38,885 nucleotides of DNA, taken from positions 1 to 38,885 of the forward strand of contig BDTS01000100.1 of the NCBI GenBank assembly GCA_002897915.1. Direction: 5' to 3'. The position numbers and the translations under genes are program-made. This DNA comes from a bacterium BMS3Bbin09 (GTDB taxonomy: Bacteria > Nitrospirota > Thermodesulfovibrionia > UBA6902). Below, in pieces: positions 14,756 to 17,141 of this stretch. Numbering within the stretch: position 1 is the stretch's first letter; each line of letters opens with the position of its first letter. Below the pieces are notes generated by a model. That model ran no database searches and was not told the DNA's origin. It saw only the letters and a program-made list of their open reading frames with translations.

Positions 14756-14784
14756 TTGCTATAGCAAATTAATTGTGTTATTTT
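14756..14784 (+). promoter_or_regulatory. candidate sigma70-type promoter for the riboswitch transcript
   Basis: TTGCTA - 17 nt - TATTTT; predicted start just 5' of the aptamer. Confidence 0.4.
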
Positions 14785-14790
14785 AAAGAC

Positions 14791-14876
14791 ACGCGATGGG
14801 GTTCGCTTAATTGCTCTTACTTCAGGGCTGATAACTCCTACTGATTCCATTGGATGGAATGTAGGAGCTTTTTTAT
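14791..14876 (+). promoter_or_regulatory. fluoride riboswitch (crcB motif) with terminator expression platform
   Basis: ACGCGATGGGGTTCGCTTAATTGCTCTTACTTCAGGGCTGATAACTCCTACT: hairpin GCG/CGC with loop AUGGGGUU, hairpin GCUCU/AGGGC, pseudoknot GGGGUU:AACUCC, conserved CUGAUnnCUCCUAC 3' end. Confidence 0.9.
14835..14876 (+). terminator. riboswitch-controlled intrinsic terminator
   Basis: CTCCTACtgATTCCATtggATGGAATGTAGGAGcTTTTTTA; the 5' arm reuses the aptamer CUCCUAC strand. Confidence 0.88.
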
Positions 14877-14889
14877 TTCTGGAGGCAGA

Positions 14890-16653
14890 ATGCCTGATAA
14901 TTATTCCCATTTCAAAGAAGAGCTTTTAAAGTGCATCGACGACATGCTCGTCATTGAAAATATACCGGGCTGCCCCTGTGAGGACCTCAGAGATAAGGTT
15001 AAGAATAATGTCTTTAATCTCGTAGTCCTCGGCCAGTTTAAGAGAGGGAAGACCAGCCTTATTAACGCGCTCCTCGGCGCGGAGATCCTGCCCACAGCTG
15101 TTGTGCCCCTTACCTCCATTGCGACAATTCTTAAATACGGTGAGGCGTTAAGGATCAAGGTCTTCCTGAATGACGGATCAGTAAAAGAGATCAGGCCTGA
15201 AACCCTTCCTTTATATGTAACGGAAAAAGGAAATCCGAAAAATGAAAAGGATGTCCGCGAGGTCGTAGTTACCTATCCGTCTCAATATCTTAAGGACGGT
15301 GTGCAGCTCATAGACACCCCTGGAGTCGGCTCTGTATATCACCACAATACGGACATTGCGTATCAGTATATACCGAAGTCGGATGCGGCGTTATTTCTGT
15401 TGTCCGTTGATCAGCCTGTAAGCCGGGCGGAGCTTGATTTCTTAACTGACGTAAAAGAATACTCTGACAGAATTTTTTTCCTTCAGAACAAAGCGGATTA
15501 TGTCGGACCGAAAGACCTTGAGGAATCAATCGACTTCTCCAGAAATGTCTTAAAGGAAAGCATCGATTCTGATATCAGAATATTCCCTGTTTCTGCAAAG
15601 CTCGCGCTCGACGGTAAACTGTCGGGTTCGGATGAAATCCTTGAGCGGTCTTATCTCCCCGCGTTCGAAAAGCTTCTTCATAAATTCCTTATAGAGGAAA
15701 AGGGCAGGGTGTTGATCCTTTCAGTATCAAATACACTGTTAAGGGTTTTATCGCAGGCAAGGCTGGAGCTTGAGCTTGAGATAAAATCATTGGCTAAGCC
15801 TGTAGATGAACTTAAAAAGAAGATAGAGATGTTCGAGAACAGGGAAAAAGATGTCTTGGAGGACAAAAAGGACTTTGATATACTCCTTGACGGAGAAGTC
15901 GCCCGGATTGTAAAAAATGTCCTTGATGAAGACCTTGAAAGTTTCAAAAAAGAGCTTGCCTCAAATCTGCTGCCGGGACTTGAGTCCCTGTTTGCAGACA
16001 ATAGAGACCTTTCCAGCAGGCAGCTCTATAAAGTCCTTGAAGAGTATGTCGTCAGCGAGGTAAAGAATGCCTGCAACAACTGGCGGTCAAAGGAAGACGG
16101 AAAACTCGCTGATACCTTTGAGGCTGTATGCAAGAGGTTTATCGGGAAGATATATGATACTGTTGACGGTCTCCTTAAATTTTCTTCTGATTTATTTTCC
16201 ATTCCCTTTGAGGTGTTCAGGTCAGAGGAATTATGGTCCATGAAATCACGGTTCTACTATAAATTCAGGAATGAACCCGTGTCGCTTGAGCTTATTACCC
16301 GGTCATTTACGTTCGCCCTGCCCAGGTTTATAAGCGACAGGATATTCCTTAAAAACTCAAGGGAGTTCATGCTTGAGATGATAGACAAACAGGGCGGCAG
16401 GATGAGGTTCGATTTCACCGAAAGGCTTAATAAAAGCAAATATGATTTCAGGTGGAAAATGCTCCAGAGGATCGAGACGACGATCGAGGGCATTTCCTCC
16501 GCCATCAATAAAGGAATGACTGAAAAATCAAAAGGCGAGTCCTCTGTTAGAAAAAGGAAGCAGGAACTTCGTGAAGTGATGCAAAAACTGGATACCGTTA
16601 AAGGAAAACTTATAGAGATAAAAAAGCAAGTTGAGCAGAAAAGAAATGATTAA
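14890..16653 (+). CDS. bacterial dynamin-like large GTPase
   Basis: GQFKRGKTSLINALLG (P-loop), DTPGVGS (G3), NKAD (G4), long coiled-coil C-terminus. Start MPDNYSHF after GGAGG RBS. Confidence 0.9.
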   Translation: MPDNYSHFKEELLKCIDDMLVIENIPGCPCEDLRDKVKNNVFNLVVLGQFKRGKTSLINALLGAEILPTAVVPLTSIATILKYGEALRIKVFLNDGSVKEIRPETLPLYVTEKGNPKNEKDVREVVVTYPSQYLKDGVQLIDTPGVGSVYHHNTDIAYQYIPKSDAALFLLSVDQPVSRAELDFLTDVKEYSDRIFFLQNKADYVGPKDLEESIDFSRNVLKESIDSDIRIFPVSAKLALDGKLSGSDEILERSYLPAFEKLLHKFLIEEKGRVLILSVSNTLLRVLSQARLELELEIKSLAKPVDELKKKIEMFENREKDVLEDKKDFDILLDGEVARIVKNVLDEDLESFKKELASNLLPGLESLFADNRDLSSRQLYKVLEEYVVSEVKNACNNWRSKEDGKLADTFEAVCKRFIGKIYDTVDGLLKFSSDLFSIPFEVFRSEELWSMKSRFYYKFRNEPVSLELITRSFTFALPRFISDRIFLKNSREFMLEMIDKQGGRMRFDFTERLNKSKYDFRWKMLQRIETTIEGISSAINKGMTEKSKGESSVRKRKQELREVMQKLDTVKGKLIEIKKQVEQKRND

Positions 16654-16706: not shown

Positions 16707-17141
16707 CTATTTTTCCAGCGGTATCCCTAATTTATGTAATTGAGGGAAGATAAGTGCATATATATACGTGCCCGCGATAATGCCTGTAAACGTAAACAAA
16801 GCCAGAACCTTTCCTTCGCCCAACTGGGCGAGCACGGTCCCGGGTCAGGCCCCGCTCATTCCCCACCCAAGCCCGAAGATCAATCCGCCGATAAGTGTTC
16901 CTCTGTGAAGCGGCTTTGTCTTGGCCTGGACAGGTTCACCTGAAAGAGAAGTAAGTTTTAATCTCTTTAATAAGGTCATTGAGACTGTTGCAACTCCTAT
17001 TGCTACCAGCATAGTCCACAAAAGTCTCAGATCATTAAAAAGAAACATCTCCATGAACAGGTCATAATTGGAGAATTCAGCTTTTGATAAGAATAAGCCG
17101 AAGATCATGCCCGGGAATATATATAAATATGGTTTTTTCAT
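16707..17141 (-). CDS. YeeE/YedE-type half-transporter (DUF6691-like) with in-frame UGA, probable selenoprotein
   Basis: ORF to 16845 ends ...GLGWGMSGA-UGA; the same frame continues PGTVLAQLGEGKVLALFTFTGIIAGTYIYALIFPQLHKLGIPLEK-TAG, restoring the family motif G(W)GxxGxCPG with U at the Cys; SECIS-like hairpin follows. Confidence 0.85.
16816..16831 (-). promoter_or_regulatory. bacterial SECIS-like hairpin
   Basis: Transcript UCGCCC-AGUU-GGGCGA: perfect 6-bp stem, loop G 20 nt after the UGA (16845-16847). Confidence 0.75.

Follow-up and report, generated by a model that had tools for sequence, protein, structure and literature searches.

Fluoride riboswitches ahead of genes for dynamin-like GTPases: one leader analysed in detail and the recurrence of the pair in relatives

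We report a fluoride riboswitch of the crcB-motif family directly upstream of a gene for a bacterial dynamin-like GTPase in a 38,885-nucleotide stretch of DNA from bacterium BMS3Bbin09 (contig BDTS01000100.1; here, the window), and the recurrence of this pair in relatives from several phyla. Regulation of the dynamin by fluoride is very likely, with fluoride binding by the window copy and induction being inferred. An ordinary transcriptional fluoride-ON riboswitch serving a dedicated fluoride-response dynamin is probably the best explanation; the RNA is an ordinary member of RF01734, and it is the conserved dynamin branch of the regulon that appears new. Few bacterial dynamins have a clear inducing signal, and for this reason little is known of their physiological roles. 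A fluoride-specific RNA that would control a dynamin gene across phyla states such a signal, and the long-standing question of their purpose becomes directly testable with sodium fluoride.

The leader and its predicted switch

The features of the locus are as follows, all on the plus strand and in window coordinates.

14783 to 14847: fluoride riboswitch aptamer (crcB motif, RF01734), a full-length cmscan match of 36.7 bits
14793-14795/14804-14806: P1 hairpin GCG/CGC, read from the sequence; P1 covaries in 37 homologues
14798 to 14803: pseudoknot 5' strand GGGGUU, read from the sequence; pseudoknot 100% paired in 37 homologues
14813-14817/14824-14828: P3 hairpin GCUCU/AGGGC, read from the sequence; five covarying pairs
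14833 to 14838: pseudoknot 3' strand AACUCC, read from the sequence; its CUCC is common to the terminator
14835 to 14874: intrinsic terminator, arms CTCCTAC (14835-14841) and GTAGGAG (14861-14867), T6 at 14869-14874; hairpin of -15.1 kcal/mol
14881 to 14885: Shine-Dalgarno sequence GGAGG, read from the sequence
14890 to 16653: BDLP/IniA-type dynamin-like GTPase, 587 aa, by Pfam Dynamin_N and by PDB sequence and fold matches

RF01734 was the sole match in a scan of the window against all of Rfam, covering model positions 1-64 of 64 (gathering score 34; E 9.5e-7 against all Rfam), and a genome-wide search placed it in single copy in the 1.85 Mb draft genome. To avoid circularity, a hold-out covariance model (R2) was built from 15 riboswitches that do not precede dynamins, and this model scored the window aptamer at 50.1 bits (E 1.5e-11). 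An earlier note, made without database searches, had identified a fluoride riboswitch here; that identity held, the Rfam match being above the cut-off, and its coordinates for P1, the pseudoknot, the GCUCU/AGGGC hairpin and the terminator arms were exact. The identity and anatomy of the RNA are thus shown, and selective binding of fluoride, with Mg2+, by this copy is inferred from RF01734 membership, that is, from sequence alone.

One could suspect that the leader is a decayed riboswitch without function, or that the match arose by chance, as the score is just 2.7 bits over the cut-off and in the RF01734 alignment C faces U at the outermost P1 pair of the consensus. However, the pseudoknot, P3 and terminator pairs are all intact, the hold-out score is as given above, and the leaders of the nearest relatives share this architecture and show compensating changes in it, which makes this explanation very unlikely; a chance match was rejected by score, anatomy and linkage. 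Because the score is near the cut-off and one P1 pair is mismatched, the aptamer may possibly bind with only modest affinity.

The terminator has an inner stem ATTCCAT/ATGGAAT, and the whole leader folds more stably than its shuffles (z -3.1). Since the same CUCC belongs to the pseudoknot strand and to the terminator arm, the two structures are mutually exclusive. The terminator ends 15 nt before the dynamin ATG at 14890, nearly the 14 nt first estimated. The longest ORF in the dynamin frame opens at 14854 with an ATG within the terminator, and the start preceded by a Shine-Dalgarno sequence is that at 14890. The dynamin has its transcript to itself, since the gene that follows, from 17141 on the minus strand, is convergent. 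A promoter scan found no convincing strong sigma-70 promoter upstream of the leader.

On its anatomy and the established behaviour of RF01734, the leader is very likely a fluoride-ON transcription switch acting by antitermination, fluoride binding and induction being inferred. Without fluoride, CUCCUAC would pair with GUAGGAG and transcription would halt at the U-run ahead of the dynamin; fluoride, with Mg2+, would stabilise the aptamer and keep AACUCC in the pseudoknot, the terminator would be blocked and the dynamin expressed. The earlier proposal that ligand binding blocks termination is supported by the CUCC overlap in the window and by aptamer-overlapping terminators in homologous leaders, while its dependence on fluoride remains an inference.

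Known RF01734 riboswitches, found upstream of crcB and eriC-F and ahead of the ppaC-uspA-eno-gpmA-crcB operon of Enterobacter cloacae FRM (PMC5533749), have the same aptamer and the same logic of terminator overlap, but in the window the target is a dynamin-like GTPase. The targets named by Weinberg 2010 are mutS, K+/Cl- transport and formate hydrogenlyase, with no dynamin in the main text. The pairing had seemed undescribed to the earlier note; we likewise found no paper joining fluoride riboswitch and dynamin in the open-access literature searched, and an entry in supplements or in Baker 2012 is not excluded.

Recurrence of the pair and conservation of the switch

The genome survey that the earlier note had proposed, for such riboswitches upstream of dynamins, found them at 8/8 close orthologs, 58/78 assessable named loci, 18/20 loci from the phylum taken to be Desulfobacterota and 16/29 Bacillota loci. 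That note had held that homologues consistently lacking the element would refute the idea; the opposite was found, and most have it. The linkage is therefore shown as a recurrent one. The genomes are mostly metagenome assemblies, taxon names follow the record titles, and the cross-phylum percentages come from samples.

Among 61 related genomes, close orthologs occur in eight, with the riboswitch directly upstream in seven and at the operon head in one; the seven other orthologs are 63-75% identical to the window dynamin. The operon of G052 runs riboswitch - CPA2 antiporter - UspA - dynamin - HAD-like - MFS. Fluoride riboswitches also occur in many genomes without this dynamin, so it is not essential to the fluoride response.

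The named-genome scan took the best 80 loci from at least 542 relatives in the dynamin family, two of which are truncated by contig ends. With R2, a riboswitch was found ≤260 nt upstream in 49 of the 80 and at the operon head in 7 more (56 of 78 assessable); two longer operons, L120 and L140, raise the linked loci to 58, of which 49 are direct and 9 operon-headed. Both had been candidate exceptions, and this was rejected once the riboswitch was seen to head a long operon in each: riboswitch - CPA2 - UspA - enolase - P-type ATPase - dynamin in Thioalkalivibrio (L120), and riboswitch - formate-hydrogenlyase-like operon - dynamin in L140. Cultivated carriers of the pair include Thioalkalivibrio denitrificans ALJD (L120) and Desulfotomaculum copahuensis LMa1 (L144), in the latter with the riboswitch immediately ahead of the dynamin. 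Two loci with no riboswitch detected (L096 and L127) have fluoride-type neighbours and little upstream sequence present. Rfam supports 11 of 12 divergent riboswitch-dynamin cases, among them ones from Bacillota and Parcubacteria; the remaining one, L141, scores weakly with both the Rfam model and R2. Linkage holds at 37-40% identity across phyla, and by a rough estimate chance would place a riboswitch ≤200 nt ahead of a given gene with a probability of 6e-5 per genome.

The protein family is present in 31/296 genomes of the window's phylum, in 38/297 of the phylum of G339, which we take to be Desulfobacterota, in 27/300 of Bacillota (the phylum of G333) and in 1/287 of the phylum of G334, the seed genome alone. 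RF01734 lies upstream on the same strand at 18 of the 20 loci examined in the G339 phylum. In Bacillota it is directly upstream at 12 of 29 loci, and 0.5-1.4 kb upstream at another 4.

The family tree has long branches and the distribution is patchy, which suggests transfer, and the pair could have spread as a passenger within mobile fluoride-resistance clusters while the dynamin serves another purpose such as phage defence; a weak similarity to the LeoA/LeoBC defence dynamins would agree. We consider this unlikely, however, since for most members a riboswitch lies immediately in front of the dynamin gene itself, in many cases (the window included) as a one-gene unit that belongs to no cluster, and since the linkage persists at the low identities given above. 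Identity as a defence system was itself rejected, the LeoA/LeoBC similarity being weak.

Covariation was assessed in 37 aptamers from family loci, one row of which (L072:314-417) precedes another gene; the alignment was fitted to P1 and P3 of the model and not to the pseudoknot. Paired cells make up 97% and two-sided changes occur in 12 of 15 pairs, well in excess of both shuffled and slid controls. The pseudoknot is paired throughout, with compensatory changes at 4 of its 6 pairs, and P1, P3 and pseudoknot all covary in the dynamin-family leaders. In 39 of 50 direct leaders a terminator overlaps the 3' end of the aptamer with its 5' arm, the rate after shuffling being 6%; a stricter criterion gave 24/50, and the looser scan, with its own shuffle control, was used instead. 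Covariation and overlap are both shown. Some Desulfobacterota leaders appear to rely on another hairpin further downstream.

In the tree, 15 of the 22 riboswitch-less named loci form one clade without any riboswitch-linked member (16 rows, 15 without a riboswitch and 1 truncated by a contig end); two more such loci, L122 and L130, were not included in the tree. This paralogous clade is mainly from Desulfobacterota, several members follow coaD, and its loci include L101, L103, L105-L110, L112-L115, L117 and L118 (Syntrophobacteraceae and others). Loss of the element in Syntrophobacteraceae homologues was considered and rejected, the apparent lack being that of the one clade. G341 carries a coaD-clade member (L106) together with a second family gene (L198) directly behind the genome's only riboswitch. 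A permissive Rfam search found no riboswitch at 8 loci without the element, and at a further 5 gave only one, ahead of other genes. No riboswitch was found at 14 loci of distant dynamins of the same lineage, and plasmid-borne relatives were remote dynamins only, none spanning 80% of the query. The existence of a clade without riboswitch shows that the protein can serve in non-fluoride roles.

As a separate observation, in Desulforhabdus sp. TSK (L197, 2264-2785) the genome's only fluoride riboswitch lies ahead of a short ORF and, after this, an MFS gene; the ORF contains a dynamin-like N-terminus, MADYDLLKQGLLTT, and is possibly the remnant of a lost riboswitch-controlled dynamin.

The dynamin and its putative role

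The 587-aa protein matches Dynamin_N (PF00350, 98.4 bits). Its nearest PDB entries by sequence are BDLP (2j68, E 2e-25) and IniA (6j72, E 2e-17), with the bacterial dynamin pair 5owv also among the nearest solved structures. An AlphaFold2 model from an alignment of 43 relatives (mean pLDDT 79.5, pTM only 0.59) has a GTPase head followed by a long helical neck and trunk, and in a fold search BDLP (2j69 best, E 7e-22) and IniA were the top matches; TM-scores were moderate, probably owing to the uncertain neck/trunk orientation in the model. G1 (P-loop GQFKRGKT), G3 (DTPG) and G4 (NKxD) are kept in nearly all of 74 family proteins and are all intact in the window dynamin. Dynamin fold and intact motifs are thus shown. 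No transmembrane segment was found in the protein; residues 443-469, at the tip position between conserved F436 and P478, are modelled with low confidence.

Nostoc BDLP (2j68/2j69), the best structural and sequence match, has in common the GTPase and the long helical bundle but differs in being only about 18% identical in the fold alignment, in that no transmembrane segment was found in the window protein, and in the predicted fluoride control of the latter. Mycobacterial IniA (6j72) is a close fold match and likewise a stress-inducible bacterial dynamin ('isoniazid inducible' in the PDB), but it is drug-induced and of low identity to the window dynamin, and to our knowledge is not under a fluoride riboswitch. 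By analogy, DynA of Bacillus subtilis, a dynamin in membrane surveillance under stress, offers the best guide to the inferred function: it clusters in nisin-treated membranes, where it is believed to be drawn to sites of damage (PMC8844932). It differs in consisting of two fused dynamin units (NCBIfam model, 1187 positions) and is not known to have a link to fluoride.

The riboswitch-controlled dynamin is the only close family member in its genome, which also has one distant dynamin-like frame of 754 aa; it is therefore not a spare of a housekeeping gene and resembles a dedicated response gene. The genome encodes a separate CrcB, around whose gene no riboswitch was found.

The main rival is dosage compensation, in which the dynamin is itself fluoride-sensitive and the riboswitch raises its amount, as proposed for enolase and pyrophosphatase. 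Together with AlFx or MgFx, GDP locks GTPases in a complex that resembles the transition state. In favour of this rival are the intact GTPase motifs and the enolase and H+-pyrophosphatase genes near some family members. Against it, the controlled copy is the only close one in the genome, the dynamin is accessory (31/296 genomes of the phylum), and a position behind a terminator is more in keeping with a response gene than with a housekeeping enzyme whose amount must be raised. We regard it as unlikely.

The preferred reading is that of a dedicated response dynamin, belonging to a coherent BDLP/IniA-like subfamily that would be deployed in fluoride stress beside exporters, the CPA2 antiporter, UspA, enolase and pyrophosphatase. 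The dynamin would most likely oligomerise on the inner membrane, its GTP turnover stabilising or repairing the membrane or organising membrane complexes, while fluoride/HF would perturb ion and proton gradients. It is probably a standard and previously overlooked part of the fluoride response in many bacteria, with induction and tolerance inferred. A membrane-protective role is as likely as not: the membrane action is inferred by homology, with which the fluoride-linked membrane role proposed in the earlier note is compatible, and the contribution to tolerance is inferred as well. A bolder reading, for which the balance is equally fine, is that a dedicated fluoride-response dynamin family exists in several phyla, in which a fluoride-induced GTPase stabilises or remodels the membrane, distinct from export and enzyme replacement. 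If true, fluoride would be toxic in part through the membrane, in addition to inhibiting enzymes.

Neighbouring genes and further loci

Operon and cluster mates of the dynamin include Na_H_Exchanger (CPA2 antiporter), Usp, MFS, enolase, cation P-type ATPase, H_PPase, CrcB with a DUF190-like partner, and NADHdh-type and formate-hydrogenlyase-like subunits. CrcB, CPA2 antiporter, UspA, enolase and H+-pyrophosphatase are textbook fluoride genes. A fluoride-induced operon made up of such genes confers resistance on Enterobacter cloacae FRM (PMC5533749), and its kinds of companion gene (uspA, eno, pyrophosphatase, crcB) also occur in the dynamin-related clusters. The suggestion that the dynamin is the sole target held for the window genome only, as relatives also switch antiporter, UspA, CrcB and MFS genes.

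L199 (G340:C18, 1689-12997) is a dense fluoride island of six fluoride riboswitches in ~11 kb, one of them ahead of a dynamin; several are divergent back-to-back pairs, as also seen in L136, L137 and L246-L249. Fluoride clusters in L048 (G037:C21, 6218-13796) and L092 (70-8716) contain conserved unknowns near riboswitches, namely an AAA_16 ATPase, HEAT-repeat proteins, a 140-aa protein and a short coiled-coil protein, and related clusters contain a HAD-like domain with similarity to a portion of P-type ATPases. Such unknowns are possible candidates for new fluoride-response genes.

On the minus strand of the window, 16707-17141 encodes a half-transporter of the Sulf_transp (YeeE/YedE-like) type, with a TGA at 16845-16847 breaking its frame within the motif GWGMSGA-U-PGT. 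Relatives have Cys at this position. If the TGA is read as selenocysteine, the frame is open and yields a protein of 144 aa; a strong tRNA-Sec (74.1 bits) is present in the genome, and the half-transporter is likely a selenoprotein.
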